From Leptotrichiaceae bacterium (GTDB lineage: Bacteria; Fusobacteriota; Fusobacteriia; Fusobacteriales; Leptotrichiaceae): a stretch of DNA of 16,078 nucleotides. Within the stretch, counting starts at the first letter, position 1. Every line of letters begins with the position of its first letter. Shown piece by piece: positions 1-16,078 of the stretch. Below the pieces are notes generated by a model, which searched no databases, was not told where the DNA came from, and was given only the letters and a program-made list of their open reading frames with translations. Where the stretch lies: assembly GCA_030532815.1 (NCBI GenBank), contig JAUNKI010000027.1, positions 1 through 16,078 on the forward strand, written 5' to 3'. Both the position numbers and the translations under genes were made by a program.

Positions 1-363
1 AAGAAACATTAAATTTTATAAAAAATATTTCTGTAGGAAAATATCAGAGATGCTGGGATAAAAAAACCTACATTTTTTATATAGTGATTTTTAAGGTAAA
101 AATTTTACTTTTACATATATTTTCTATATTATAATTATATCATAAGTAATAAAGAAGCCGTAGAAAAAATTTTTTTTTAACAGCTTCTTTTTATTTTATA
201 TCATATTACTATTCCTGATGTACTCATTGCCGCCTCATTTACATTTCTTCGGATATTCTCCGTATTCTTTACTGGATTTTTCATAACTTTCTCAGATTTA
301 TGATAAGCTGGCTGACAGAATTACAGACTGTACTCTTCTCATTACTACTCTTTAAGTTCGAGT
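1..363. other. Left-edge stretch without a convincing gene
   Basis: Bases 1-150 are very AT-rich and show no reading frame. A terminator-like hairpin sits at 151-190. Bases 200-363 are somewhat less AT-rich and contain, on the minus strand, a 27-codon frame from an ATG at 284 to a stop at 201, without a Shine-Dalgarno site. In another frame a short lysine-rich tail can be read that ends in PKKCK. These may be remains of a decayed gene, but no family could be recognised. Confidence 0.4.
151..200. terminator. Hairpin with T-tract, possible bidirectional terminator
   Basis: An 8-bp perfect inverted repeat, AAAGAAGC (151-158) and GCTTCTTT (183-190), encloses an A-run and a T-run that can extend the stem. 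On the plus strand it is followed by a T-rich tract (CTTTTTATTTTATAT). On the minus strand the trailing sequence is less T-rich. It could end transcription of the cysteine-rich gene at 364-861 or of a gene beyond the left edge. This is read by eye; no folding energy was calculated. Confidence 0.4.
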
Positions 364-861
364 CTATTCTTCTTTACAAGGAATTTTATTATCGTCAATT
401 AATCTTTCAGCAATATAAGCAGTTATGTTTCCGGTTATTTCTATGCAGTGCTTCTTTCTTTCAGGACTTTTGAATTCATCACCTTTCCACTGTTTAGTCA
501 TTACTCTACAACAGCATGAACCGTAATTTTTTATTGTATGGTCATGAAGTCCTTTAGATTCTTCAAACATTTTTTCTTCCATAGGTTCACCCTGAAGTCT
601 TCCGTAAACCATCCCCAGAGCCATCTGTCCTCCCGAAACAGCTCCGCACAGACATCCGGCCTTCCCCATTCCTATCGGAAATCCGCTGGCCATTTTTACT
701 ACATCGGGATGATACGGCTGTCCCAGATAATTATTTATTACCGTAAGGACAGCTTCGCTACAAAAAAATGTTCCACAGGCAAATAATTCTTCTGAATCTT
801 TTCTGATTTTTTGAATAAGCTCGTCTTTTGTGTATTGTGTCGTGTCAATTTTTTCACTCAT
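364..861 (-). CDS. C_GCAxxG_C_C family protein (cysteine-rich, probable redox or metal protein)
   Basis: This 165-residue protein carries the cysteine pattern of the C_GCAxxG_C_C family: C29-G-x-x-x-C34 near the N-terminus, G69-C70-x-C72-G73 in the middle, a run of three cysteines at 116-118, and C139. Members of this family are small cytoplasmic proteins often found near redox enzymes; their biochemical role is not established. I placed the start at 861 (MSEKID) because GGAGGT lies six bases upstream of that ATG. An upstream ATG at 906 would place this ribosome site inside the coding region. There is no signal peptide or membrane segment. It lies downstream of the TDT transporter gene after a 324-base spacer, so it is probably transcribed on its own. 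Family assignment is good; function is unknown. Confidence 0.85.
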   Translation of the reverse strand: MSEKIDTTQYTKDELIQKIRKDSEELFACGTFFCSEAVLTVINNYLGQPYHPDVVKMASGFPIGMGKAGCLCGAVSGGQMALGMVYGRLQGEPMEEKMFEESKGLHDHTIKNYGSCCCRVMTKQWKGDEFKSPERKKHCIEITGNITAYIAERLIDDNKIPCKEE

Positions 862-1185
862 TTCATTACCTCCAAAAATTAATTTTTTATTTACTTCAGT
901 TTTCATTTACAAAATTTTATTATTCTCTGCAGGTTGCATCAGTTTTTCTATTTTCCCATAGTTATTTCAGGAATCATATTTTTTCATATTATGAGATACT
1001 TCAGTCTGAATAGAATTTCCAACGTCCAACTGTTATACATTCCATTCATTATTACATATACAAGCCACATTAAATTTTTTCTACCAATGACTATTTTCAT
1101 ACTGTTCAGATAAATTATAAATAATATTGTCGGTTCTCCGACTAACAATACTGTCGGAGTCTGTCAACGTTTTTCCTTTTTATAA
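862..1185. other. Spacer with overlapping inverted repeats and a TTGACA box
   Basis: This 324-base gap separates the transporter from the cysteine-rich gene. At 1136-1159 an exact 7-bp inverted repeat, CTCCGAC and GTCGGAG with a 10-base loop, overlaps a second repeat, GTCGG (1129-1133) and CCGAC (1138-1142) with a 4-base loop, so only one of the two can form at a time. TGTCAA at 1162-1167 reads TTGACA on the minus strand. A minus-strand TATAAT sits at 1114-1119 but not at promoter spacing from it. A 38-codon minus-strand frame (984-1100) has no ribosome site. Operator, small RNA or dispersed repeat are all possible. Confidence 0.4.
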
Positions 1186-2103
1186 TTAACTTTGCCCACT
1201 TTTAAACATGAACTTCAAATATTTCACTAATACATAGACAACAATAATGACTGCTATAAATTCCTGAAATTTTACTATCATAGATAATATTTTTACATCT
1301 CCGCCTGATTTTTTTATAAATCCTGTAAGAAGTTTCATACCTGTAGCACTTATAACCATAGGAAACGTAAATGCCGAAATCGCAGGATAGAACTTCAATT
1401 TTAAAAGTTTCGGAAATTTGAATATACAGTATATATAAAATCCTGCTGAAATAGCTGTTAATAAATATATTATGAACATATTCTTTTCAGGAAAACTGCT
1501 CATATATCCTGCAAGAAGCAGTGAAATCGGTGCAGAAAATACTATCAGCATAGGCTGCAGCGGTTCGGGTATTTCCTTCATCAGAAAAAAAACTCTGTAG
1601 CAAATTATTGGCTGTATTATAAAATAACATATAAAGCCGAACCAGAAAATTGACTGCCCGACAGGAAACATTTTATAAATTGGTGCAGTTACACTGGCAG
1701 TCACTATTCCTACATAAAGTATCGACCATGTTGTAAATATTTCATCTATTTTGAACCTGAAAGCAAACTTTACATTAAACCATAGGATAAAAGCTGCATT
1801 TAAAACAATTCCCGCAAACCATATCATTTTTCCTATTGAAGTCGGAAAATACGTAGACAGTATTATTACCGACATAGGTGCTGTGGCAAAAGCTGCCGAA
1901 GCAACGGGATTCTGTAGGAAATTTCTGAAACTTTCAATATCCGATACAATTTTTAATATCAGGACAGTCAGCAGTGCTGTCGCTATAACTCCGAATATAT
2001 TTCTATAAACTTCTCCATAATTTCTTATCAAATTTCCTAAAGCTGCCAATCCTAAAATCAGCCCGGATACAGGATAAGGGTATTTCCCCAATATTTTTTT
2101 CAT
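1186..2103 (-). CDS. TDT family transporter (TehA/SLAC1-like anion channel or dicarboxylate exporter)
   Basis: The 305-residue protein is almost entirely hydrophobic, with roughly nine to ten membrane helices and short charged loops. The opening, PYPVSGLILGLAALGNL, is the hallmark first helix of the tellurite-resistance/dicarboxylate transporter (TDT) family, which includes bacterial TehA, fungal malate permease and plant SLAC1. TehA and SLAC1 form trimeric anion channels in the inner or plasma membrane; others export malate or sulfite. The substrate cannot be told from sequence here. The ATG at 2103 is preceded by GGGAGAG at suitable distance. It follows the acyl-CoA dehydrogenase gene by 90 bases, with only an AT-only hairpin in between, so the two could be cotranscribed. 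Family confident, substrate open. Confidence 0.85.
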   Translation of the reverse strand: MKKILGKYPYPVSGLILGLAALGNLIRNYGEVYRNIFGVIATALLTVLILKIVSDIESFRNFLQNPVASAAFATAPMSVIILSTYFPTSIGKMIWFAGIVLNAAFILWFNVKFAFRFKIDEIFTTWSILYVGIVTASVTAPIYKMFPVGQSIFWFGFICYFIIQPIICYRVFFLMKEIPEPLQPMLIVFSAPISLLLAGYMSSFPEKNMFIIYLLTAISAGFYIYCIFKFPKLLKLKFYPAISAFTFPMVISATGMKLLTGFIKKSGGDVKILSMIVKFQEFIAVIIVVYVLVKYLKFMFKSGQS

Positions 2104-2193
2104 CGTAATCTCTCCCTAAAAAAATTTATTTCCCGAATAAATAGAAAAAATATATTTTTCATTCGTCTGTTTTTATTTATCATATTAAAATAA

Positions 2194-3330
2194 TTATATC
2201 AGAGACTGTCCAGTTTCTATTTTTGCAGTCCAGTTTTTCAATACATCCACACTCGGAAACATCACAGGAGCTGCCAATGCATCTCTCATAAGTCTTTCCA
2301 GAGGACCTTTCTTATTGTATGCCTGTCCTCCGCCTATTCTCATTGCAAGGTTTGCAGACTCCACACAGTTCAATGATCCTGTTACCCTTGCCGCCATTAT
2401 TTTAGCAAAAGCATCGGGTTCTTCCCTATCCAGTGCCTTTGAAGCAGCTGCCAATGCATTTTCGGCATTTACTGTGTTATTATAAAGATTAAACAAATGT
2501 CCCTGTACTGTTTCAATAGATGCAAGCGATTTACCTTCGGGATATTTTCTTGAAACAGCATGTTTTTTTGTCTCTTCATAAATAGTTCTCGTAAGCCCTG
2601 TATAAACTCCTGCAAGCCCTGTCATAAAATAAATAACATCTATATTTACGGGATATTTCTGATTTGCTTTTACTCTATCTATATAAATTGCATATTTATT
2701 ATCAAGTTTCATATTTTCCATATACATAGGACACGAATTGTTTCCTCTCATTCCAAGACCGTCCCAGTCACTTTCTGCAAATCTGAGTCCTTCCGCTCCA
2801 ATCGGAACAAGCCAATTTACGGGACCTCTTTTTTCATCGGCAGGAACTGATATTACATAATACGATGCATATCCTCCTGAACTGATCATACTTTTTACTC
2901 CGTTTATTATGCTGTAATTATCAGTATTTTCAGTCTGTGTCTGTGAATTGAATACATGTACTCCCGTTCCGAATTCACTTCTTGCAAGAGACATAAATTT
3001 ATCATTTTCCATAATATCTTTTATAACCTGCTGTTTTATTTCATCCCTTCCGAAAGTTAGAGTAAATTTTAACGCAACATTACTCATTGTGTAACAAAGT
3101 CCCACTGTTGCACATGCCTCTCCGAATGCTCTTGAAATCTGTCCGTGTGCATAGGCTCCCGCTCCTTCTCCGCCAAATTCTTCGGGAACCAAAATTTTAA
3201 AAAATCCCTCCTCGGCAATCTTCTTAAATATTTCTTCAGGAAATTTCCCTTCTTTGTCAATTCGATCTGCATGAGGAGCTATATACTCCTTTGCAAAATT
3301 TTTAGCCCATGTGTAGTAACATTTTTTCAT
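2194..3330 (-). CDS. Acyl-CoA dehydrogenase family flavoprotein lacking the canonical catalytic glutamate
   Basis: This 378-residue protein has the full acyl-CoA dehydrogenase layout: an N-terminal helical domain (about 1-110), a middle beta domain with the flavin-contact stretch around SEFGTG, and a C-terminal four-helix domain ending in GGGQAYNKKGPLERLMRDA. Typical members use FAD to desaturate acyl-CoA thioesters and pass electrons to ETF. Here the usual YEGT after the RLMRDA motif is replaced by PVMFPSVDVL (355-364). The alternative glutamate site used by isovaleryl-CoA dehydrogenase also seems absent. It may therefore be a related flavin monooxygenase or a non-desaturating homologue. The start at 3330 (MKKCYY) is chosen because GGAGG lies five bases upstream; the ATG at 3342 overlaps that site. 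A terminator sits upstream at 3395-3447. No ETF genes are nearby. Confidence 0.85.
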   Translation of the reverse strand: MKKCYYTWAKNFAKEYIAPHADRIDKEGKFPEEIFKKIAEEGFFKILVPEEFGGEGAGAYAHGQISRAFGEACATVGLCYTMSNVALKFTLTFGRDEIKQQVIKDIMENDKFMSLARSEFGTGVHVFNSQTQTENTDNYSIINGVKSMISSGGYASYYVISVPADEKRGPVNWLVPIGAEGLRFAESDWDGLGMRGNNSCPMYMENMKLDNKYAIYIDRVKANQKYPVNIDVIYFMTGLAGVYTGLTRTIYEETKKHAVSRKYPEGKSLASIETVQGHLFNLYNNTVNAENALAAASKALDREEPDAFAKIMAARVTGSLNCVESANLAMRIGGGQAYNKKGPLERLMRDALAAPVMFPSVDVLKNWTAKIETGQSLI

Positions 3331-3394
3331 TTTTTCCTCCATTTTTTATTTATTTTGATTTTAATATACTTTACAATATTTCAGCAGTTACAGT

Positions 3395-3447
3395 AAATAA
3401 AAACAGCAGCACAATAAAATAATACACAATATTATTTATTATGCTGC
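3395..3447 (-). terminator. Strong rho-independent terminator
   Basis: On the minus strand the arms at 3430-3447 (GCAGCATAATAAATAATA) and 3406-3424 (which ends TTGTGCTGC) pair over about 17 bp with one mismatch and one bulge, around a 5-base loop. The stem is followed directly by TGTTTTTATTT. The orientation fits termination of transcripts coming from the decayed region, upstream of the acyl-CoA dehydrogenase gene. It overlaps the end of a 22-codon ORF, so an attenuator role is possible. Confidence 0.65.
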
Positions 3448-3500
3448 AAAACGGTATATATTTTTATATATCCTGTAAAATTTTTATTATAAGTTTTCAC
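3432..3500 (-). CDS. Possible 22-residue leader peptide
   Basis: A GTG at 3500 is preceded by AAGGAG at ordinary spacing and opens a 22-codon frame rich in lysine, asparagine and tyrosine. It ends inside the stem of the terminator at 3395-3447. A good ribosome site, short length and overlap with a terminator upstream of an enzyme gene are the layout of a transcription attenuator, but no run of a single regulatory amino acid codon stands out. It could equally be a chance ORF in a decayed region. Confidence 0.25.
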   Translation of the reverse strand: MKTYNKNFTGYIKIYTVLQHNK

Positions 3501-3688
3501 TGTATTTCTCCTTAAATTCATATTTATAGTATACTAAGACTCTGTAAACTGAATTTCAAAAAGAAACAGTATAAAAAACTATGTTTTAAAATAACTGTCA
3601 TAAAATTCAGGCATATTAAAACAAATTAATCTGTTATATACCGAAATTTTACCCGACATAATATTGAATTTATTCTGTAAATCCCAAA

Positions 3689-3916
3689 TCAAGAAAAAAT
3701 GTCCTTCTCTTTTCTGTTTATGTTTATTTTTAAAGATAAATTAATCGAAAAAACAGCAGAAAGAGATGATAACAGAATATTCTCATTGAAATTTTTACAT
3801 AAAGTACAACCTGCACTTTTAATACCCGCAGCTCAACTGTATCGAACTGTATTAAAAGTATCAGATAAGAATAATCTATTCTCAATATCCGCTATTTTAA
3901 AATCATAGATATTCAT
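3689..3916 (-). pseudogene. Decayed gene, N-terminus resembling glutathione peroxidase
   Basis: An ATG at 3916 has a good ribosome site (GGAAGGAG) and a promoter upstream (3967-3994). The first 27 codons read MNIYDFKIADIENRLFLSD and onward, which resembles the N-terminus of glutathione peroxidases (xIYDFxVxDxxGxxxxLSD), thiol peroxidases that reduce hydroperoxides. A TGA at 3833-3835 interrupts the frame. Another 47 codons follow to a second TGA at 3689-3691, without the family's later motifs (NxAxxCGxT, FPCNQF). I infer a broken gene whose expression signals survive. The family call rests on about 20 residues and is weak. Reading the first TGA as selenocysteine is not supported, since the context does not match the family's active site. 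Confidence 0.35.
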
Positions 3917-3966
3917 ACTCTTTCTCCTTCCTTTCATTTTTTATCTTTAATATACTCTATAACATA

Positions 3967-3994
3967 ATTATATCCTATAAATAAAATAATGCAA
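3967..3994 (-). promoter_or_regulatory. Sigma-70-type promoter before the decayed peroxidase-like gene
   Basis: On the minus strand TTGCAT (3989-3994) and a perfect TATAAT (3967-3972) are separated by 16 bases. The start codon and its GGAAGGAG site follow about 50 bases downstream, at 3916. The surrounding DNA is AT-rich, so a chance match is possible, but the combination with a good ribosome site supports a real promoter. Confidence 0.45.
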
Positions 3995-4042
3995 CACTTA
4001 TTTTCAATTTTATTTATAATCTGTTATCCGATTTTTTTTATC

Positions 4043-4330
4043 TCATCTAACTTTCCATAGTTGTAAATTTACAAATATTGACATCCGATATCTGCTCTTT
4101 TCTCCTATGCTGTCTATATATTCCTTATCCTTATCCGGAGATAATGTCACCCGTTCTTCTGAAAAAATATACTGTATTTTTCCAACTTTTTCATCAATTA
4201 TATCAAGAAATTGGCACTTATATATTCCTAATTTTTCAAACAGCAAGATGACAGCATATCAGCAAAAATATTCCGGCTTCCCGACAAGAATACCTCTTTC
4301 CAAAACAGCTACATAACAGGTGCAAAAAAC
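4043..4330 (-). pseudogene. Unidentified decayed coding sequence with one in-frame stop
   Basis: A 96-codon minus-strand frame contains a single in-frame TGA at 4259-4261. The part after it can be read as 67 residues from a TTG at 4246 and contains charged, coding-like sequence such as DIIDEKVGKIQYIFSEERV. No ribosome site precedes that TTG. Random DNA this AT-rich should meet a stop about every 13 codons, so one stop in 95 codons suggests former coding sequence. No family was recognised. Confidence 0.3.
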
Positions 4331-4406
4331 TCAGAATATAAACGGCATATCGGAACCATCCGAAAAGAAAAAACACTAAAATCAATGCAATTATTAATAC
4401 TTTAAT

Positions 4407-4850
4407 TTATCCGTTATAACAGTAAAAAGGAAATCCCGCTGCTGCAGTGGATGGATATCCTAAGTAAATAATGTTATTGTGAACAAAACCTGTTGCAGTA
4501 AAACAATCTATCCTATATTGGGAAAGTGAAAAACAAACAGCGACATTGTCCAAAAAAGACTTCGGAAACAGACTGTCCAATCGGTCGGCATTGTTTAAAA
4601 AATATCATCTGATTAAGTATTTTTCCGATAAATTCAGGCAATTCAAACATTTCTGCACTTAATACCGTAACCCGGCATTTCTTTTTTTGTCGTTTGTATA
4701 TTTAAGTTAAGCTTCCGTTTTAATTTTGTTAAGTTCTACACTGCTGAAATATTTTTCAGATACAGCCTGATACTGCTAAAAATCAAAACGGAGCTGCTGT
4801 CTTATAAAACACTTTTCTATCTTTAAAATTTCAACTTCAAATCCGTCCAA
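4407..4850 (-). pseudogene. Unidentified decayed coding sequence with four in-frame stops
   Basis: Directly after the DUF4912 gene a minus-strand frame of 148 codons contains four internal stops (TAG at 4776-4778, two TAA, and TGA at 4605-4607). It ends with an uninterrupted 65-codon stretch (4407-4604) whose last part reads GFVHNNIIYLGYPSTAAAGF. About eleven stops would be expected in random sequence of this composition. A 45-codon frame from an ATG at 4650 to 4513 runs in another phase over the same DNA, so a frameshift is also possible. I could not identify the ancestor. An imperfect inverted repeat (4710-4727 with 4778-4794) lies inside it. Confidence 0.35.
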
Positions 4851-4852
4851 AT

Positions 4853-6025
4853 TTACGAACTTCTGATACCTGTCATTACAAGTCTGTCAGGAGAAGTTCT
4901 TTTTATTTCTTTTTCGGACATATTTTCCGAAGAACCTACTTTCATAAGTCTTTCAATGACCTCCACCGTAAATCCGTCATTATTTTCAGGATTTTTTATG
5001 AATTCCATAAATTCTTTATTTTCTTCAGTAGGAATCGGACTGTTTACATATTTTATTACCTGCTTTGTATTTTTATCTTCTTTAACTGTTCCCCAAACCA
5101 GCTCCAGATTATCAGACAGCCTGTCAGACGGAGATATTGACTGAGTAGAGTGGGCAACTTCGGAAAAATTCCCATATTTATCTTCATATCCGATAAATAC
5201 TTCATAATTTTGGGCAGTATCCACTTCTCCTATATAATGAGAGCCTATTCTTTCATGTCTTATTATTTTCCTGTATTCACTGCCGTCCTTAAACAGTTTT
5301 ATTACTATATTGTCTATTATATCAGGATTTTCCGACAGTTTTTCAAAAGTATCGTCCCTAATTTCCCAGTAAACATAAAGTGTGGTAGGATTTTTAGGCA
5401 TCAGAACCACTTCATCTACAAAATATGCCGCAGGTAAAGGAGCCTTGTCAAAATAAATATCCTCCGGACTTGAATGTCCTTCATACTCGGCACCTTTGGC
5501 AAATTTTGATCTGTTAATTTCCGTTTCTTTTTCTCTTTTTCTGATTTCTTCTTCATTTATTCCCTTATATATAAAATCAATTTCTTTCTGAAAATCACTT
5601 CGATATTTTCTGTATCTTTTTCTCAGATTTCTCATTAATTTTTTATTGGGATAATTTCTGTAATAAGTTCTGCTTCTATACATAAAAGTAGCTTCAGAGA
5701 AAAATTCTTCTGACAACTGAATTTCATTTTCCGATTTCTGTACTTTATTTTCAGTATTTAAAACTTCTGCATTTTCTGTTACATTTTCTTTCCCGTCTGA
5801 TTTTGAGACTGCTTTTTCATTCACTGCACTTTTTTCCGTAAAAATTTCTTTTTCTCTGTTATCAGGATTTTCCATATTCCTGTTTAGGGAATAATTACGT
5901 TTATATCCTTTTTTTTCAAGTTTTTCCATAATTTTTTCCCTGTTAAATGTCAACCCCAAAAAAAGTTTTTCTTTCTTAGCACAATCAATAAGCTCCTCTT
6001 TCGTCATTTCATCCAAATATTTCAT
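4853..6025 (-). CDS. DUF4912 domain protein with an N-terminal Rho_N/SAP-like motif
   Basis: The 390-residue protein begins with a short helical motif (about 6-45, MTKEELIDCAKKEK) that resembles Rho_N/SAP-type helices. A low-complexity, strongly charged linker follows (about 45-190). The DUF4912 domain runs from roughly 195 to 315, seen in PLPAAYFVDEVVLMPKNPTT followed by LYVYWEI. DUF4912 proteins have no established function; the domain resembles a beta-sandwich and often occurs near glycogen or alpha-glucan enzymes in Fusobacteria and Firmicutes, which is background knowledge and not shown here. There is no signal peptide. CGGAGGC lies just upstream of the ATG at 6025. It lies 80 bases after atpC with no clear terminator between, so it may be the last gene of the ATP synthase transcript. 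Confidence 0.75.
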   Translation of the reverse strand: MKYLDEMTKEELIDCAKKEKLFLGLTFNREKIMEKLEKKGYKRNYSLNRNMENPDNREKEIFTEKSAVNEKAVSKSDGKENVTENAEVLNTENKVQKSENEIQLSEEFFSEATFMYRSRTYYRNYPNKKLMRNLRKRYRKYRSDFQKEIDFIYKGINEEEIRKREKETEINRSKFAKGAEYEGHSSPEDIYFDKAPLPAAYFVDEVVLMPKNPTTLYVYWEIRDDTFEKLSENPDIIDNIVIKLFKDGSEYRKIIRHERIGSHYIGEVDTAQNYEVFIGYEDKYGNFSEVAHSTQSISPSDRLSDNLELVWGTVKEDKNTKQVIKYVNSPIPTEENKEFMEFIKNPENNDGFTVEVIERLMKVGSSENMSEKEIKRTSPDRLVMTGIRSS

Positions 6026-6105
6026 ACACGGCCTCCGTTTTTTATATTTTATATATTTTCCAACTATTTAAGCTTTATGTACATTTAAGTGCTTCTGAAT
6101 TCCGT

Positions 6106-6495
6106 TTATTTTCTACGTAAATTTTCCTGTATACGTTTCTTTGTTCCGAGAATATCCTGATCTTCTCTCAATTTATGCTGTTTTGCAAGCTCAATTGCAG
6201 CTTTTTTTGCAAGTTTTACCGCTTCAGCCGTCGTAGCTTCCATCATATCCTCACCCAAAATAACGACTTTATCCTGTCGAACTTCAAGAAATCCTCCTTC
6301 AAGATAATATGTAGTTTCCGCATTGTCCTTTTCTCTGACGATCATTTCTCCTGCCCCGAGTGAAGAAACAAAATTCGCATGCTTGGCAAGAATACCTACA
6401 TCTCCGTTTTCAGTTTTCACTTTAACAAATATTACAGGCTTTTCAAAAACAAGTCCTTCAGGCGTAACTGCTTTTAAAATAAATTCCGTAGCCAT
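6106..6495 (-). CDS. atpC: F-type ATP synthase epsilon subunit
   Basis: This 129-residue protein is the epsilon subunit of the F1 central stalk. The N-terminal beta-sandwich (about 1-85) includes the family's conserved VTPEG near the start and GDVGILAKHANFV (about 31-43). The C-terminal helical hairpin (about 88-129) carries the KLAKKAAIELAKQ stretch. Epsilon links gamma to the c ring, and its C-terminal helices can inhibit ATP hydrolysis. TAGGAGAT precedes the ATG at 6495, which lies 20 bases after the atpD stop. It is the last of the ATP synthase genes. Confidence 0.96.
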   Translation of the reverse strand: MATEFILKAVTPEGLVFEKPVIFVKVKTENGDVGILAKHANFVSSLGAGEMIVREKDNAETTYYLEGGFLEVRQDKVVILGEDMMEATTAEAVKLAKKAAIELAKQHKLREDQDILGTKKRIQENLRRK

Positions 6496-6515
6496 TTTTC
6501 CAATCTCCTAACAAA

Positions 6516-7928
<1,413 letters not shown>

Positions 7929-8789
7929 CTACTTCAGGGCTTCCGAACCTCCGACAATTTCCGATAACTCCTGAGTAATCTGTCCCTGTCTTTCCCTGTT
8001 GTACTGAACCGTCAGTTTTTTTATCATATCATCGGCATTGTCATTTGCCTGCTTCATTGCCGACATTCTTGCCGAATGTTCACTGGCAGCACTTTCAAGT
8101 AAAGCCTGATACAGCTCTATATTCAGCACTTTCGGGACAAATGCCCTCAGCACTTCTTCTTCAGAGGGCTCAAATATATATTCCTTTGTAGGAAGGTTTT
8201 CTTTTTTCTCTATAGGAAGTATTTTTTTTATCTGAATACTGTATTCAATCGCTGAAATAAATTTTGAATACAGCAGATACACTTCATCATAAAAATCGTT
8301 CAGATAAAACTGTACAACATCCTCACTTATTTTTTTGGCTTTTTCAAACATAGTTTCAGGTATAAGCTGGATATATTCACTGTCTACCGGTATATTTCTA
8401 CTTTTACAGTAATCCCTTGATTTTTTTCCTATTGACACTATGCTGACTTCTTTTCCTTCCTGTCGAAATTTTTTCATCATTTCTTCCATTTTTCTCAGCA
8501 TATTGGAATTAAAACTTCCACAAAGTCCCCTATCCGAAGTCATTATTACAATTCCTATTCTTTTTACTTCAGGTTTTCCGTCAAATATAATATGCTTTTT
8601 TCCTTTGAGACTGGCAACAAGGTTGTCAAAAGCAATATCAAGAGTTTCCGAATAACTTCTGGACCTTAAAGTCAGCTCCTGAAATTTTTTAAATTTCGTA
8701 GATGAAACTATATTCATAGCATTTGTAATTTGACCCGTATTTTTAACACTGTCAATTCTTTCTTTTATTTCTTTCATATTTGCAGCCAT
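7929..8789 (-). CDS. atpG: F-type ATP synthase gamma subunit
   Basis: Gamma is the rotating shaft of F1 and couples proton or sodium flow through the c ring to catalysis. The 286-residue protein shows the two conserved terminal helices that form the coiled coil: [20 protein letters not shown] at the N-terminus, and the C-terminal stretch with [11 protein letters not shown] and [13 protein letters not shown]. The middle Rossmann-like part contains [17 protein letters not shown] chose the ATG at 8789 because AGGTGG lies five bases upstream and the family usually starts MAxNMKEI; a GTG at 8798 in the same frame is less likely. It begins 13 bases after the atpA stop. Confidence 0.97.
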
Positions 8790-8802
8790 ATAACCCACCT
8801 AC

Positions 8803-10308
8803 TTACCATACATAGTCCTGTTTATAATTTATTATATACCCGTCAAGTTCATTTTTTACTTCATCGGTCAACTTTTCTTCATCTCTTATTCTGTTTAAAA
8901 TTTCACTGTTGGCTCTTAAACTTTCAATAAGATCATGTTCAAAAACTGCCACTTTTTCAGTGGAAATATCGTCAAAATATCCGTTTGTAACACAGTAAAA
9001 GGAAACTACCTCTTCTTCAACTTTATAAGGATTATACTGTTTCTGCTTCAGTACTTCCATTATTTTTGCTCCTCTGTTCAGCTGCTCTCTCGTAGCTTTA
9101 TCAAGATCCGAACCGAACTGTGCAAAGGCAAGAAGCTCATTATACTGTGCAAGTTCTATTTTGACTTTTGAAGAAACCTGTTTCATGGCTTTTATCTGAG
9201 CACTTCCTCCTACCCTTGAAACTGAAACTCCGGGATTTATCGCCGGTCTGAATCCGGAATTAAATAAATCCGTTTCAAGAAATATTTGACCGTCAGTTAT
9301 AGATATTACATTTGTAGGAATGTATGCCGATATATCTCCCGCTTTGGTTTCGACAATAGGCAGAGCCGTTATGGAACCTCCGCCTAATTTATCACTTAAT
9401 TTTGCAGCTCTTTCAAGAAGTCTTGAATGAAGATAAAAAACATCTCCAGGATAAGCCTCCCTTCCCGGCGGTCTTCTCAAAAGCAAAGACATTTCCCTGT
9501 ATGCTACTGCGTGCTTGGACAAATCATCATATACAATAAGTACATGTTTTCCCTGTTCCATAAAATATTCCGCCATTGCAACTCCCGCATAAGGTGCCAG
9601 ATATTGGAGAGGAGCCGTTTCTGATGCTGTTGCCGCAACTATTGCTGTATATTCCATTGCACCTTCCTCTTCCAATTTTTTATATATCTGAGCTACTGTA
9701 GATCTTTTCTGACCGATTGCCACATAAATACAGTAAACCCCGGTTGTTTTCTGGTTAATTATCGCATCTACGGCTATTGCAGTTTTTCCCGTCTGCCTAT
9801 CTCCTATTATAAGTTCACGCTGTCCTTTACCGATAGGAACCATACCGTCTATGGCTTTAATCCCCGTCTGAAGAGGCTCGCTCACAGGTTTTCTGTCAAT
9901 AATACCGTAGGCCTTTCTTTCAATATTCATATATTTTTCGGCATTCACAGTGCCTTTTCCATCTATAGGCTCTCCAAGTGCATTTACTACTCTTCCGAGA
10001 ACTTCCTTTCCTACAGGAACACTGGCAATTTTCCCTGTTCCCTTTACTGTACTTCCTTCTCTTATCCCTCTTATTTCTCCGAAAATTACCGCACCTATAT
10101 TATTTTCTTCAAGATTCAGTGCCATTCCCGTTGCCCCGTTTTCAAATTCAAGGAGTTCTCCGGACATTACATTACCCAATCCGTATATTCTCGCTATTCC
10201 GTCTCCCGCTTCCAGTACAGTCCCTGTATTGGAAATATCAAGAGTCGCATTATAATTTTCAATTTCTGCACGAATTATTTTACTTACTTCTTCCGGTTTA
10301 ATTCTCAA
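8803..10308 (-). CDS. atpA: F-type ATP synthase alpha subunit
   Basis: The 501-residue protein is the non-catalytic nucleotide-binding alpha subunit of F1. Walker A is GDRQTGKT at about 169-176. The stretch [14 protein letters not shown] holds the arginine that reaches into the beta catalytic site. Length is standard. The reading frame is open up to a TTG at 10323, but that codon overlaps the Shine-Dalgarno site GGAGGTG. The TTG at 10308, eight or so bases after this site, gives [12 protein letters not shown], which matches the usual family start. It therefore uses a TTG start, like atpD. It begins 18 bases after the atpH stop. Confidence 0.98.
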
Positions 10309-10326
10309 AAAAAGCACCTCCAATTT

Positions 10327-10854
10327 TTAGAACATTTTTTTCAAATTTTCAATCTGATGTTTTACGGAACCGTTTATTATTTCGTTACGTATTTTAACAA
10401 TTCCTCCTCCAATAAGACTTTCATCAACTTTGAGATTTAAAACCACTTTTTTTCCGTATTTTTTTTCCAACTTTCTTATTAATTTCTCTTTCTGATTTTC
10501 CGATAATTCCTTTACAAATATCGCAGTTATAGGTAACTTATCATTCTCAGCATAATAAATTTTTAAAAATTCTTCCTTTATATGGGAAATTAAAGACAAT
10601 CTTCCTTTTTTTACTATATAATTAACTATTCTCAATGCTTTTTCACTTACAAAATCAAAAGATCTTTTCAGAAAATCTTCCTTTTCCTCTACTGTAATGA
10701 CAGGATCCGACAAAAATTTTCTGAATTCCTCTTCTTCTTCATATTTTTCCATCAGAAGATTTAAAGTTTCACGGATTTCCCCTATGTTATCTGAAGATTT
10801 AGCTATATCATAGATAGCTGAAGCATATCTTCCGGCAATTCCTTTTTTATCCAT
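10327..10854 (-). CDS. atpH: F-type ATP synthase delta subunit
   Basis: Delta (the OSCP homologue) sits on top of F1 and joins it to the b-subunit peripheral stalk. The 175-residue protein has the N-terminal six-helix domain (about 1-105, with IAGRYASAIYDIAK) and a C-terminal part ending in the conserved DESLIGGGIVKIRNEIINGS. Length is normal for the family. The ATG at 10854 follows the atpF stop by five bases, and the ribosome site TAGGAGAT overlaps that stop, which suggests coupled translation of b and delta. Confidence 0.95.
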   Translation of the reverse strand: MDKKGIAGRYASAIYDIAKSSDNIGEIRETLNLLMEKYEEEEEFRKFLSDPVITVEEKEDFLKRSFDFVSEKALRIVNYIVKKGRLSLISHIKEEFLKIYYAENDKLPITAIFVKELSENQKEKLIRKLEKKYGKKVVLNLKVDESLIGGGIVKIRNEIINGSVKHQIENLKKMF

Positions 10855-10859
10855 AAATA

Positions 10860-11354
10860 TTAATCTCCTATTTTATCAATAAAATTGTCAATTATCTCGT
10901 CTTCTCTGCCTTTTATATTTTCTTTTATAATTTTTTCCGCAAGTTCAACTGCTATTTCTCCTACTTCCTTCTGGAGCTCAAATTTTGCATTCTGTCTCAT
11001 TTTTTCAATATCGGCTTCAGCTTTCATCATCATTCTTTCCCTATTCATCATAGCAGATGATATAATCTGGTCTTTTCTCTCGTCAGCCTGTCTTTCGGCT
11101 TTAATTAAAATTTCGTTGGCTCTTCTTTTGGATTCCTTTTTCAGTTTTTCAGCAGTTTTTTTCTGTTCTTCCAACTTTTCCCTTTCCTGATCCACGATTT
11201 CCATTTCTGACAAAGCCAGATTTTTCCTGTCTTCTATTACTTTTCCGATTTTTTTTGCAAATCCTTTCCAAAAAATATACACAAGTATTAAAAAATTTAC
11301 TATTTGGATTGCCATTGTAAAATCTATATTAATTAACTTTGATCCTTCCGACAT
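10860..11354 (-). CDS. atpF: F-type ATP synthase b subunit
   Basis: Subunit b forms the peripheral stalk. The 164-residue protein has one N-terminal membrane helix (about 12-33, FTMAIQIVNFLILVYIFWKG), then a long, highly charged helix with coiled-coil character (about 35-150) rich in K, E and R, and a short C-terminal part that contacts delta. Length is typical. AAGGAGAG lies about nine bases upstream of the ATG at 11354. The 43-base gap after atpE contains no terminator. Confidence 0.95.
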   Translation of the reverse strand: MSEGSKLINIDFTMAIQIVNFLILVYIFWKGFAKKIGKVIEDRKNLALSEMEIVDQEREKLEEQKKTAEKLKKESKRRANEILIKAERQADERKDQIISSAMMNRERMMMKAEADIEKMRQNAKFELQKEVGEIAVELAEKIIKENIKGREDEIIDNFIDKIGD

Positions 11355-11397
11355 ATTTTGTTTCTCTCCTTCAGATGATTTCAGAAATTTATTGAAT

Positions 11398-11634
11398 TTA
11401 ACCTTTTAAGAATATTAACAGAAAAGATATCACTAAAGCATATATCCCCGTTGATTCGGTAATTGCCAGTCCTATAATAAGTGTCTGCATAATATCCTGC
11501 TTCGCTTCAGGCTGCCTTGATACTGCTTCTACCGCATATGCGGTAGCCATACCCTGTCCGAGACCTGCTCCTATACCCCCGATTGCTGCTATTCCGGCAC
11601 CTAATAATGCTGCCGCCTGTACTAATCCTTCCAT
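11398..11634 (-). CDS. atpE: F-type ATP synthase c subunit with sodium-binding signature
   Basis: The 78-residue, two-helix hairpin forms the membrane rotor ring. The loop RQPEAKQDI joins the helices. The ion site matches that of the sodium-dependent Ilyobacter tartaricus c subunit: Gln27 in helix 1 (GAGLGQG), and Ile58, Glu60, Ser61, Thr62 and Tyr65 in helix 2 (ITESTGIY), equivalent to Gln32, Val63, Glu65, Ser66, Thr67 and Tyr70 there. Proton-type c subunits usually lack the Gln and the Glu-Ser pair. The enzyme is thus predicted to run on Na+. AGGAGG precedes the ATG at 11634. Confidence 0.97.
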   Translation of the reverse strand: MEGLVQAAALLGAGIAAIGGIGAGLGQGMATAYAVEAVSRQPEAKQDIMQTLIIGLAITESTGIYALVISFLLIFLKG

Positions 11635-11688
11635 TATTTTCCTCCTAAAATTTTAATATTTATTTCATCATTTTATATTTTTTTATTT

Positions 11689-12603
11689 TTATTCCTCTTC
11701 ACTTTCTTCTCCCAGAACTTCACTTACATAGACAGATGAAAGCACTGTAAACACAAAAGCCTGTATAAGTCCGACAAAACCATCGAAATACAGCTGTAAT
11801 ATTCCCGCCCAGCCTACTGAAAAGGAAAACTGTCCGTGCAGTATGTTTTTTGTGGCAGACTGTATTATTTCCCGTCCTACGAGACTGTAGAGCAGTCCTC
11901 CTATTACAAGTCCTGCAAACATATTTCCGAATAGTCTCATTGAAGTGTTAAGAGGCTTTGAAAGCTCTCCTACTATATTTACGGGAAGCATAAACCATGC
12001 AGGATGCATCAGACTTTTCAAATACCCTGTAACTCCGCCTTTTTTTATAGCAATGGACACAAAAAGAACCACTACTACAAGAGACAGGCCTATCGTTGTA
12101 TTCGGATCTGCCGTAGGTGTTCTGAAAAAAGGTCTAATATAATAGCCTCCCTCTGCTCCTCTGGATACTGTTATAATAAACGGAAACAGGAACAGACTTA
12201 AATTCAAAAAAAGTATGAATGCAAATAATGCTGAAAAAAACGGCATAAATTTTTTCTTATATTTTCCGAATGTCCCTAAAAACATATTTTCTATAAAATG
12301 ATAATACTCTTCTAAAATAATCTGCAGTTTACCCGGATTGGTCACACTTAATTTATCCGTCCCTTTTTTTATTATAAATGTGAGCAGAGCCATAATCAAC
12401 CATGTATTTAGCACTGTCTGACTAATAGGAATCTTCATATTTCCTATGAAAAAATTATAATATTTCGGTGCTTCAATAAGGCTTTCAGGCATCACAAATT
12501 TTACGGGAAGGAAAGTTGAAATTAATGATAATACCAGATTTACAATAAGTATTACACCTGATAGGACAAATAATAAAACTGTTATTTTTTTTCCTTTTCC
12601 CAT
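11689..12603 (-). CDS. atpB: F-type ATP synthase a subunit
   Basis: Subunit a is the membrane stator that passes ions to the c ring. The 304-residue protein has several membrane helices and the conserved PLNTSMRLFGNMFAG stretch, in which Arg223 is the essential arginine facing the c-ring glutamate. The sequence ends in an acidic tail (EESEEE). It is at the long end for bacterial a subunits because of a hydrophobic N-terminal segment. AAGGAGGAT lies upstream of the ATG at 12603. It follows atpI by 85 bases, and a promoter at 12671-12699 could start transcription of the structural genes here. Confidence 0.96.
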   Translation of the reverse strand: MGKGKKITVLLFVLSGVILIVNLVLSLISTFLPVKFVMPESLIEAPKYYNFFIGNMKIPISQTVLNTWLIMALLTFIIKKGTDKLSVTNPGKLQIILEEYYHFIENMFLGTFGKYKKKFMPFFSALFAFILFLNLSLFLFPFIITVSRGAEGGYYIRPFFRTPTADPNTTIGLSLVVVVLFVSIAIKKGGVTGYLKSLMHPAWFMLPVNIVGELSKPLNTSMRLFGNMFAGLVIGGLLYSLVGREIIQSATKNILHGQFSFSVGWAGILQLYFDGFVGLIQAFVFTVLSSVYVSEVLGEESEEE

Positions 12604-12670
12604 TTTTGTACTATCCTCCTTGTATTTATAATATTTATAAAATTATGAATATATTCAAATTCCAGATTCT

Positions 12671-12699
12671 ATTATACTCCAATCATTATCATTTTGCAA
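12671..12699 (-). promoter_or_regulatory. Internal sigma-70-type promoter before atpB
   Basis: On the minus strand TTGCAA (12694-12699), a 17-base spacer and a perfect TATAAT (12671-12676) lie across the end of atpI and the start of the atpI-atpB gap. This would allow the eight structural genes to be transcribed separately from atpZ and atpI. The -35 box matches the consensus at five of six positions. Evidence is the sequence match alone. Confidence 0.5.
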
Positions 12700-13081
12700 A
12701 CTTTAATATTGCCCGATTTATGTATAACGATACTTTAAAATTTAAAAAACCCGCTCCTGTTGCAATTATATTATTTACCGTGTGCCCCGAATAAAATTTC
12801 CGACTTAGAAATATGACAATACACATTCCTATGCAGTAAATTAAGACTCTTTTCAAATATTCAAATGTCCCCTTAAATCGTCCGACATTTCCGCTATTTA
12901 ATATCTTATATGTACCTGTCATTATTAAATACACACTTATCATTGAAATTATCGAGCCTGTAAAAAAACCCACATACAACTCGGGTATTTTTAAAAATAT
13001 TCCTAAAATCAGAGATACTATTGTTAAAATAAACGAAATTACATAAGTTTTTTTTATTAGTTCAGGTATATTTCCAAACAT
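12689..13081 (-). CDS. atpI: ATP synthase subunit I (c-ring assembly factor)
   Basis: AtpI is a small membrane protein encoded at the start of many bacterial atp operons; it assists assembly of the c ring and is not part of the finished enzyme. The 130-residue protein has four predicted membrane helices, with positions about 12-30, 36-57, 79-97 and 101-118. Sequence is weakly conserved, so the call rests on topology, length and position. The frame is open to a GTG at 13099, but GGAG lies just upstream of the ATG at 13081 (MFGNIPEL), which I take as the start. It begins 19 bases after the atpZ stop. Confidence 0.8.
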   Translation of the reverse strand: MFGNIPELIKKTYVISFILTIVSLILGIFLKIPELYVGFFTGSIISMISVYLIMTGTYKILNSGNVGRFKGTFEYLKRVLIYCIGMCIVIFLSRKFYSGHTVNNIIATGAGFLNFKVSLYINRAILKFAK

Positions 13082-13100
13082 TTTTTCTCCTATTTTCACT

Positions 13101-13415
13101 TTATTTAATATTCATAACCTGCTTTACTAATGTCCAGTAACCCGTGAATGCACCTGTTACCAGAAATATAATCAGCACAATAGGCTGCTGTTTTTTAAAA
13201 ATATGCCTTTCCATGACAAGATACAGTCCAAGCATAAGCAGAACAGGACCCGCCAGAGTATAAATCATATTTGTCGCTATTAAGAAATATTTTAAAAGTA
13301 TTCTGTCTTTTTTTATTTTTAATTCTTTTTCTTTGTTATGTCTTCCTAATTTTTTTTCCAATTCATAAAGCCTTTCAGCTCTTTTATTTTTTTCTTCATT
13401 AAATTTTTCGGTCAT
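13101..13415 (-). CDS. atpZ: AtpZ/AtpI family protein
   Basis: The 104-residue protein has a charged N-terminal helix (about 1-40) and two membrane helices (about 43-66 and 78-97), the layout of the AtpZ family, which precedes atpI in many atp operons. AtpZ is thought to act with AtpI in assembly or cation uptake, but its role is less settled. The frame extends to an ATG at 13511, giving 32 extra residues that overlap the upstream gene. I reject that start, because AAGGTGAG lies at proper spacing before the ATG at 13415. The upstream gene ends at 13438, only 22 bases away, so both share a transcript in the Leptotrichia-like genome. Confidence 0.8.
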   Translation of the reverse strand: MTEKFNEEKNKRAERLYELEKKLGRHNKEKELKIKKDRILLKYFLIATNMIYTLAGPVLLMLGLYLVMERHIFKKQQPIVLIIFLVTGAFTGYWTLVKQVMNIK

Positions 13416-13437
13416 ATTCTCACCTTTTTTACATATT

Positions 13438-13701
13438 TTAAAGTTTTTTAAATATAAAAAATATTCTGCTTTCCCCAAAATCGGGATTTTTTGCCACATC
13501 AAAAATTTCAAATCCTTTATTCTGAACAGTTTCAGCTATCCATTGAGGATCATAAATAAACTTATTGTGCTGTTCATTGTATTTTCTGAATAAATTGTCT
13601 TTTTCATTCTGTCTTATGAAAAGATCAATTTCCACAAAATATTTTTCGGAATTCAGTTTTTCATATCTCCATATACTAGTATATTCCGGTTCTTCATCTA
13701 A
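13438..13701 (-). pseudogene. 3' fragment of a probable SAM-dependent methyltransferase gene
   Basis: The last ~87 codons before the stop at 13438 look like the end of a class I methyltransferase: a strand with YFVEIDLFI, a helix with FRKYNEQH, then DPQWIAETVQNKGFEIFDVA and a closing strand RIFFIFKK. In such enzymes this region completes the Rossmann sheet; the SAM-binding part (GxGxG) is missing because it lies beyond the junction. Codon use and the 22-base spacing to atpZ tie it to the Leptotrichia-like side. The family call is from pattern memory and is moderately sure. Confidence 0.55.
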
Positions 13702-14910
13702 AAATATACCATTTTCAATCAAAATAACACTTTTCTCTCCCAGAGTACGCCCTTTGTCAAGTATCGCAATGGTTTTTCCTTTGAATGAATACTGATGCAA
13801 TGCTTCTTCGACTCGTGCATTATATTCTTGCAAATTTTCAATATCAATACAAGCCCCTTTGCATTTGTTCATTGTATAATTGTAACAATTATGAGGAGCA
13901 GAAGAAAAGCCTGTTAGTTTTGTACAAAGTGTATGCTGCTCTGTAAGTTCGTAGAGCGTATTTTTTCCTTCGGCTAAGGTCTCGAAACTTAGCCAATGGC
14001 TTGCATTGTGTTGTAATGGAAGGATATTAAGTGTGAGATACCCTTTTTTATTTTTTTTGACAAAAAGTCCATACGAAAGAGGGCGAAATAGTCGTTTTCC
14101 ATTAAGCGTAGGTTTGTTTAGCTGTATCTCTTGGAGTTCTTTGAGTTGGGCAATTAGCTCATTGCCAGTAAGTTCAAAAACTACTTTATATGTATGTTTT
14201 TGTAGATATAAATCTTTTTTCTGAACAGAAGTAAAGTGCTGATTTACACGTTTTTTTATATTTTTATTACGACCAATATACAAGAGTTTTCCTTCTTGAT
14301 TGTACATATAATACACTCCCATTTGTGTAGGTAAATCGTCCAAAATATGTAGAAGCCGAGTAGAAATACTCGGATTTATATCTTGCTTGACCCATTGTGT
14401 TATGATTTGCTTTGAAGTGTCTTTGGCAAGAAATAATTTGAAAAGTTCTAGTGTAGCAAGTGCATCTCCGTTAGCACGATGTCTATCACTGACCGGGATA
14501 CCCAGCGAACGCACGAGTTTTCCCAAGCTATACGACTTAGAATCGGGAAAGAATTGTTTAGCCAATTCGACAGTGCAAATGCTACTGCGTTGATAGTTAA
14601 AACCCAGTCGGCGAAACTCCGTTCGAAGTATCCGATAGTCAAAATCGGCGTTGTGAGCCACCAGAATGCAATCTTCTGTAATCTCGACAATTCGCTTGGC
14701 TATTTCATAAAACTTAGGAGCGGTGTGGAGCATTTTCTGATTGATGCCTGTTAGCTTTACGACAAAATTCTGAATTTCACGCTCAGGATTAACCAATGAT
14801 ATGAACTGGTCAAGGACATTTTGCCCATCAAAACGATAAATGGCTATCTCGGTAATACCCTCTTGGTTATATTGTCCTCCTGTAGTCTCTATGTCTAAAA
14901 TTGCATACAC
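13438..14910 (-). CDS. Chimeric ORF: DEDDh exonuclease + GIY-YIG protein joined to a methyltransferase tail
   Basis: The 490-codon frame joins two unrelated proteins. Residues 1-165 are a DEDDh 3'-5' exonuclease like DNA polymerase III epsilon, with D6, E8, D91, H144 and D149. Residues about 196-275 are a GIY-YIG nuclease domain (GVYYMY, LLYIGR, E251). A UvrC-like cysteine group follows (C342, C350, C354). This architecture is common in Bacteroidetes. Up to about residue 403 it matches that family, whose members normally continue with a different C-terminus. The last ~87 residues (LDEEPEYTSIWRYEKL to SRIFFIFKK) instead resemble the C-terminus of Firmicutes/Fusobacteria class I SAM-dependent methyltransferases. 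No Shine-Dalgarno site precedes the ATG at 14910, while the tail lies 22 bases before atpZ. I infer an artificial or recombinational join, not a natural fusion. Confidence 0.75.
   Translation of the reverse strand: MYAILDIETTGGQYNQEGITEIAIYRFDGQNVLDQFISLVNPEREIQNFVVKLTGINQKMLHTAPKFYEIAKRIVEITEDCILVAHNADFDYRILRTEFRRLGFNYQRSSICTVELAKQFFPDSKSYSLGKLVRSLGIPVSDRHRANGDALATLELFKLFLAKDTSKQIITQWVKQDINPSISTRLLHILDDLPTQMGVYYMYNQEGKLLYIGRNKNIKKRVNQHFTSVQKKDLYLQKHTYKVVFELTGNELIAQLKELQEIQLNKPTLNGKRLFRPLSYGLFVKKNKKGYLTLNILPLQHNASHWLSFETLAEGKNTLYELTEQHTLCTKLTGFSSAPHNCYNYTMNKCKGACIDIENLQEYNARVEEALHQYSFKGKTIAILDKGRTLGEKSVILIENGIFLDEEPEYTSIWRYEKLNSEKYFVEIDLFIRQNEKDNLFRKYNEQHNKFIYDPQWIAETVQNKGFEIFDVAKNPDFGESRIFFIFKKL
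13690..13740. other. Junction between Fusobacteriota-like and Bacteroidetes-like DNA
   Basis: The protein-level break falls at about residue 403 of the chimeric frame, where the Bacteroidetes family reads IENGxF and then usually KGYG, but here continues LDEEPEYTS. That codon is at 13699-13701, so the join lies near 13690-13740. No insertion sequence, att-like repeat or tRNA is visible at the site. Confidence 0.65.
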
Positions 14911-14948
14911 CGATTATAAAAAACTTTATGGGTCAATAAAATTATTTC

Positions 14949-14980
14949 TGGTAAAAAATTGAAATTCTTTTTGAAGAATT
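14949..14980 (-). terminator. Likely terminator of the yggS gene
   Basis: On the minus strand AATTCTT and AAGAATT (14974-14980 and 14963-14969) form a 7-bp stem with a 4-base loop, overlapping the yggS stop codon, and are followed by TCAATTTTTTACC. The stem is all AT except one pair, so it is weak, but the T-run is good. Confidence 0.4.
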
Positions 14981-15638
14981 AGTTTTTGTCGAATACGGCA
15001 CTTCCTATTCGAACCATTGTACTTCCGCAGGCAATAGCAATTTGGTAATCTCCGCTCATTCCCATCGAAAGGATATCAATATTACAATTTGTGTGCAGAT
15101 TATTTTTTATCACATCAAAGATCGATTTTGCATATAGGAATTCTTGTTTTATTTGTGCTTGATTATCTGTGTTTGTTCCCATTCCCATAATTCCTCGTAG
15201 TCGAATATGTTGCATTTGCTGAAAATCAGTTGAAGAAACTATGCTAAATAATTCATTCTCGCTTAAACCGAATTTGGTCTGCTCCTGAGCGATGCGTATT
15301 TGGAACAAAAAATCAATAATTCGATTGTTTTTTTGAGCTTGCCAATTGATTTCAGAAAGTAATTTTAGGCTATCTACACTATGAATGAGTGATACATACG
15401 GAGCCATATATTTTACTTTGTTAGTTTGCGTATGCCCAATCATATGCCATTGAATGTCTTTGGGAAGATGTGTATATTTTTCTGTCATTGCCTGAATTTT
15501 ACTTTCACCAAAGATACGTTGCCCCGCTTGGTAGGCTTGCATTATTTCTTCCTTAGAATGATATTTAGAAACAGCAACAAGCGATACATTTTCGCCCAAA
15601 TCGGCTTTGATCCGAAGTAAATTTTCTCGAATGCTCAT
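14979..15638 (-). CDS. yggS: YggS/YBL036C family PLP-binding homeostasis protein
   Basis: YggS (PLPBP) proteins bind pyridoxal 5'-phosphate in a TIM barrel and help regulate free PLP levels; no enzymatic reaction is established. The 219-residue protein has the PLP lysine, K25, in VAVSKYHS, the IGHTQTNKVKY stretch, TKFGL, and the phosphate-binding end LSMGMSGDY...GSTMVRIGSAVF. Length is typical. The usual FGENYVQE motif reads FGESKIQA here, a variant of Bacteroidetes members. There is no Shine-Dalgarno site before the ATG at 15638, as is common in Bacteroidetes. It lies 68 bases upstream of the exonuclease gene in the same direction. Confidence 0.92.
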   Translation of the reverse strand: MSIRENLLRIKADLGENVSLVAVSKYHSKEEIMQAYQAGQRIFGESKIQAMTEKYTHLPKDIQWHMIGHTQTNKVKYMAPYVSLIHSVDSLKLLSEINWQAQKNNRIIDFLFQIRIAQEQTKFGLSENELFSIVSSTDFQQMQHIRLRGIMGMGTNTDNQAQIKQEFLYAKSIFDVIKNNLHTNCNIDILSMGMSGDYQIAIACGSTMVRIGSAVFDKN

Positions 15639-15725
15639 AATTGTTAAGTTACAAGATGAAAAATAGTTTGTTTTTTATACAATTTATATATAAATTTCCT
15701 TATTTTCAATTTGATATAGCAAAAA

Positions 15726-16078
15726 TTAAGAATTTTTCTCTATTTCGGCAACAATCATCTTGGCAATACGCAATGCTTCTGTACCTTGTTGCAAAGTAAC
15801 AACAGGCGTTGTATTCTGATTGATAGCATCTGCAAATGAATTAAGTTCGTCTAAAATAGCATTGTTAGGAACTACTTCAGGATATTCAAAATAGATTTGT
15901 TTTTTCTCCCCTTCGGCATTTTGCAAAATCATATCGAAATCAGAAGGCTCTTTTGGAGCGTTTTTCATTCGTACAACTTCTACTTTTTTCTCTAAAAAAT
16001 CTACTGAAATATAGGCATCTTTCTGAAAAAATCGAGATTTTCTCATATTTTTCATCGAAATACGACTTGCAGTAAGGT
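15726..16078 (-). CDS. Gfo/Idh/MocA family oxidoreductase, C-terminal part (cut by window edge)
   Basis: The frame is open to the window end (117 codons visible) and ends at 15726. Upstream of an internal ATG at 16055 it reads LTASRIS, so the gene continues beyond the edge. The visible part, with SRISMKNMRKSRFFQ, DAYISVDFLEKKVEVV and NAILDELNSFADAI, matches the C-terminal beta-sheet dimer domain of NAD(P)-dependent Gfo/Idh/MocA oxidoreductases. The nucleotide-binding N-terminal domain lies outside. Substrate is unknown; members act on sugars, inositols and bile-pigment or amino-sugar derivatives. It belongs to the Bacteroidetes-like side. Confidence 0.8.
   Translation of the reverse strand, partial: LTASRISMKNMRKSRFFQKDAYISVDFLEKKVEVVRMKNAPKEPSDFDMILQNAEGEKKQIYFEYPEVVPNNAILDELNSFADAINQNTTPVVTLQQGTEALRIAKMIVAEIEKNS

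Follow-up and report, generated by a model that had tools for sequence, protein, structure and literature searches.

A reading frame joining Capnocytophaga and Leptotrichia gene fragments on a Leptotrichiaceae contig very probably reflects an artefactual junction between two bacterial genomes

The draft genome of a Leptotrichiaceae bacterium (GCA_030532815.1; 1.85 Mb in 230 contigs, 82.5% complete, estimated contamination 0.62%) includes contig JAUNKI010000027.1 (C88), the whole of which, 16,078 nucleotides in length, is the window analysed here. A frame of 490 amino acids is present as an open reading frame on the minus strand at 13438-14910, and it consists of two unrelated pieces, a Capnocytophaga part followed by a Leptotrichia part. 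Judged by sequence comparison, the contig is very probably an artefact uniting DNA of two bacteria, arising either in assembly or as a physical chimera. Both parent genes are whole and separate elsewhere, encoding 453 aa in Capnocytophaga catalasegens (locus L023) and 241 aa in Leptotrichia (locus L004 and protein P0122). Two distant taxa are matched at high identity with an abrupt switch between them, a short sequence is common to both at the joint, and no fused copy was found in the sets searched. A preliminary description of this DNA, in which one frame was said to join Bacteroidetes-like and Fusobacteriota-like genes, most likely on a chimeric contig, is thus borne out.

The first part of the frame derives from a DEDDh exonuclease with a GIY-YIG domain. 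Pfam placed RNase_T at residues 4-157 (E 2e-32) and GIY-YIG at residues 197-267 (E 2.3e-8), while the UvrC and Cho models of NCBIfam match part of an intact exonuclease/GIY-YIG homologue, in line with the flavobacterial, partly UvrC-like protein originally proposed. When named genomes were scanned with residues 1-400, with the top 80 of 180 loci retained, C. catalasegens KC07084 (L023) matched at 99% and the runner-up, another Capnocytophaga, at 58%. The KC07084 protein shares 99.5% identity with the window over residues 1-400 (13711..14910, minus strand) and ends in its own last ~48 residues, whereas the window, which lacks the last ~50 residues of this 453-aa protein, has a methyltransferase end there instead. 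At the DNA level, 13698-16078 (minus strand) is 99.08% identical to KC07084, differing at 22 of 2381 bp and showing no gaps. This match covers parts of three genes plus the DNA between them, namely residues 1-404 of the exonuclease/GIY-YIG protein, a YggS-type gene and a cut oxidoreductase gene, and it ends at 13698 with nothing further left included. Comparing all 16078 bases with the KC07084 genome gave the main match and four weaker ones (64-84%), all under ATP synthase genes, the last of them just 43-44 bases long. KC07084 is an isolate from a cat mouth, according to PMC13413776 and to a title cited in PMC11218291.

The intact flavobacterial protein (L023:10001-11362) is itself a DEDDh exonuclease joined to a GIY-YIG/UvrC-like part. 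Against PRK07883-type models it scored under the cut-offs (best 220 vs 495 bits). Its homologues are many and, among the matches listed, those carrying a name are called exonuclease, DNA polymerase III epsilon or GIY-YIG proteins. One locus, L051 (CALPPA020000066.1), is titled as a Klebsiella pneumoniae metagenome-assembled genome and carries a 453-codon flavobacterial-type exonuclease/GIY-YIG gene with 52% identity to that of the window; the record is perhaps mislabelled or contaminated.

The end of the frame belongs to a Leptotrichia methyltransferase. Its last ~90-96 residues were matched in 26 of 39 related genomes, each time in a separate frame of 221-268 aa. In the closest relative (G002), which is collinear with window positions 4852-13718 at 86% DNA identity, the methyltransferase gene is whole (241 aa) and precedes, by 27 bases, the same small genes and atp operon, so that the intact gene whose presence had been suggested as a check does exist. 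Identical to the G002 gene is P0121, a class I S-adenosylmethionine (SAM)-dependent methyltransferase of Leptotrichia sp. OH3620_COT-345. The metagenomic protein P0122, also whole at 241 aa, agrees with window residues 399-490 at 92/92 positions and probably comes from the same species as the Leptotrichia side of the window. The methyltransferase piece (residues 399-490 and the stop codon; 13438..13716, minus strand) is therefore 92 residues long by comparison with P0122, which retains the identity given in the preliminary description and corrects its length of ~87; identity to G002/L004 is 86% over residues 395-490. The real methyltransferase starts with about 148 residues that the window is without, and which we take from their Pfam labels to be the SAM-binding part. 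Searched alone in Pfam, the final 90 residues gave no family at E up to 0.1. The stop codon lies 22 bases before the ATG at 13415, ahead of the atp genes, as first described; the name atpZ is unconfirmed, the 104-aa gene at 13101-13415 having no NCBIfam match and Pfam not having been used on it.

The place of the methyltransferase end varies among relatives. It lies in the atp gene neighbourhood in five of eight genomes searched (G001, G002, G003, G004 and G009), with ~0.9 kb of extra DNA between methyltransferase and atp genes in G001 and ~1.4 kb further along in G004, and it lies ~1 Mb off in G018 and G021 and on another contig in G013. Besides the window, the 82.5%-complete draft genome yielded one distant methyltransferase-like match (32%) and nothing corresponding to the missing half. 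The strain name COT-345 suggests that the nearest Leptotrichia is presumably from a canine mouth, and the Leptotrichia of the window may likewise come from the mouth of a pet. As to the proposal of two oral bacteria, Capnocytophaga is indeed represented by a cat-mouth species, and the Leptotrichia half of the claim stands at the strength just given.

The junction could be located within the range 13690-13740 that had been predicted for it. The matches to L023 and to Leptotrichia overlap by 21 bp at 13698-13718 (residues 398 to 405), and on the minus strand these 21 bp are identical to L023 at 21/21 positions and to L004 at 20/21. The 230 bases on the Capnocytophaga side agree with L023 at 228/230 positions and with L004 at 81/230, while the figures for the 230 bases on the Leptotrichia side are 73/230 and 200/230; against ten Leptotrichiaceae loci, the 21 bases show 1 to 4 differences from the window. 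Both parent genes read ENGIFL from this stretch in the same frame, and the frame is open across the join because the join falls there. The frame had been said to happen to be kept; kept it is, as a consequence of the join position and no separate coincidence.

Chance sharing of such a stretch was estimated with independent, identically distributed bases, and about 15 exact 21-mers would be common to genomes of these sizes and compositions. The draft genome contains one exact copy of the 21-mer and a further one with two mismatches. Between the 13.7-kb and 21.2-kb sequences that were compared, shared words of 10-16 bases were commoner than this estimate, and no shared 18- or 21-base words occurred outside the joint.

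Composition was compared by a third-order Markov model trained on the non-matching part of L023 versus other Leptotrichiaceae loci, and the change point fell at 13696. All 27 segments of 500 bases in 1-13500 favour Leptotrichia, the weakest at 12501-13500; the segment with the joint scores near zero, and 14001-16000 favours Capnocytophaga in 4/4. Homologues of the atp region are among the Leptotrichiaceae loci used for training, so homology aids the fit there. For positions 1-4850, the listed genome matches fall outside the training loci.

On these data, the contig would combine DNA of an uncultured Leptotrichia, from position 1 to about 13.7 kb, with that of C. catalasegens (13.7-16.1 kb), presumably from the same sample, and the join would sit where the two genomes, probably by chance, have up to 21 bp in common. 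Most likely, an assembler crossed between the genomes via this shared short word, a chimeric library or amplification molecule being the second choice. Twenty-one is also a usual smallest word of common short-read assemblers. The 490-aa "fusion protein" would then be made by no organism. Scaffolds chimeric between two organisms are described as rare but known (PMC7111523), and Majernik et al. (2025, PMC12108083) report chimeric genes from metagenome-derived gut pangenomes with a small overlap matching both taxa. The misassembly chimeras of that study likewise involve oral taxa as sources and contamination estimates below the usual 5% limit. Unlike the cases given there, the present one pairs Fusobacteriota with Bacteroidota, has a joint narrowed to 21 bp and has two parents that are each known in whole form. 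A literature search gave nothing that, from the listing, was judged to bear on Leptotrichia/Capnocytophaga fusion genes.

Several observations weigh against an artificial join. The junction is clean, the frame runs through it uninterrupted, and the reported contamination is low. The single mismatch to L004 lies in the middle of the shared stretch and leaves 10 bp of exact overlap at each end, L004 being the allele of a congener. The G+C content is nearly equal on the two sides (34.0% and 35.1%) and thus uninformative on the join. The missing methyltransferase half may be absent simply because the genome is incomplete. In addition, a weak match (24-27% identity) in 13 of the 39 relatives starts at residue ~191 and crosses the joint; it lies in frames of 590-608 aa and reaches residue 441-442 in 11 and 406-407 in two. 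These matches are read as loose alignment of UvrC, to which such frame lengths would correspond, and not as fusion. Apart from them, just the open frame would speak for a real, evolutionarily conserved family of fusion proteins, an explanation we regard as extremely improbable. No copy of the fused form was found in the 39 related genomes, and the exonuclease part was joined to the methyltransferase-end frame in none of the 26 with a match. With E values up to 1 allowed, residues 405-490 matched none of 80 flavobacterial and related loci; in these loci the homologous frame ends after 449-461 codons in 70 and after 359-365 in eight, and the locus end cuts the other two. Of 8000 scored homologues 120 were listed; none of these 120 shows a fused form, and their query coverage is 81-82% except for P0060 (89%), whose own end aligns with the flavobacterial C-terminus. 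A conserved family was rejected as unsupported, no homologue in the sets searched covering both parts; nor did these sets show a single family spanning all 490 residues, a possibility that had been named as a check on the chimera.

Real illegitimate recombination, in which Leptotrichia took up C. catalasegens DNA at the shared stretch and its methyltransferase gene was cut, is very unlikely and, as had been anticipated, less likely than an artefact. It would amount to a very recent cross-phylum event in a cat or dog mouth, placing at least 2.4 kb of C. catalasegens DNA beside the Leptotrichia ATP synthase operon through a stretch of 10-21 bp and creating an in-frame hybrid. The cat-mouth source of C. 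catalasegens and the presumed canine-mouth origin of the nearest Leptotrichia are compatible with such an encounter, as are the kept frame and the contamination figure of 0.62%. However, P0122 is encoded by a whole gene with an identical C-terminus, and a search of the 82.5%-complete genome did not recover the remainder of the methyltransferase gene. The DNA agrees with that of an isolate from a different phylum as closely as is usual among members of one species. No second junction back into Leptotrichia DNA is seen, because the contig ends within Capnocytophaga DNA. No transposase or integrase was found in eight Pfam-searched sequences (six of them window genes), no search having been aimed at mobile elements. 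Within the artefact reading, a physical chimera formed before assembly, by template switching in multiple displacement amplification or library polymerase chain reaction and then reproduced faithfully by the assembler, is possible but rather unlikely. The overlap at the joint is compatible with template switching in general, whereas overlaps in multiple displacement amplification, as measured on inverted chimeras within one genome, are reported to peak at 6 nt and to be mostly 5-8 nt (PMC4595205). The 10 to 21 bp seen here fit this less well.

Wider contamination of the genome by Capnocytophaga was also considered, and no sign of it was found, as judged on one 20-kb locus stretch and on SusD. 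The 20-kb stretch of the C. catalasegens locus gave, besides this contig, just a 54-base match at 80% in the draft genome. No SusD family member turned up in the draft genome, with the control positive in 1/14 genomes (a Bacteroides) and C. catalasegens itself unchecked. The draft genome has two YggS genes, compared with one each in G001 and G002; its own Leptotrichia-like copy, on contig C77, is 35% identical to the Capnocytophaga copy on the present contig. This second copy and the lack of further Capnocytophaga sequence in the searches just described count in favour of the artificial join.

Among the remaining features, the YggS-type gene (14979-15638, minus strand) was named by NCBIfam, and beyond it lies the cut end of the oxidoreductase gene (15726-16076, minus strand), with a sub-threshold Gfo/Idh-type Pfam match (14.2 vs 22.9 bits); the neighbour genes are whole in L023. 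The Leptotrichia atp operon, with two small genes ahead of it, occupies 6106..13415 on the minus strand and is collinear with contig C5 of G002; subunits A and alpha were assigned by NCBIfam and the other subunits were named by sight.

At the left end of the contig, synteny with the same-genus genomes G001 and G002 breaks at about 4850, just after a DUF4912 gene. Left of the break lie genes for a C-GCAxxG-C-C family protein (364-906), a SLAC1-type transporter (1186-2103) and an acyl-CoA dehydrogenase (2194-3342), the matches of which sit elsewhere in G001 and G002. A second bad join at about 4.85 kb was considered; because the composition stays Leptotrichia-like on both sides, a natural rearrangement seems the likelier reading of the break. 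Positions 3343-4852 form an AT-rich stretch of about 1.5 kb that wholly contains no open reading frame of more than 69 aa and has no Rfam match, and Rfam found nothing at the gathering threshold in the whole window.

The 490-residue frame thus represents no new protein but a clean case of how brief identity between two genomes can yield a spurious fusion with an open frame, even where the contamination estimated for a draft genome is as low as 0.62%. Such a product would mislead searches for domain fusions or gene transfer.
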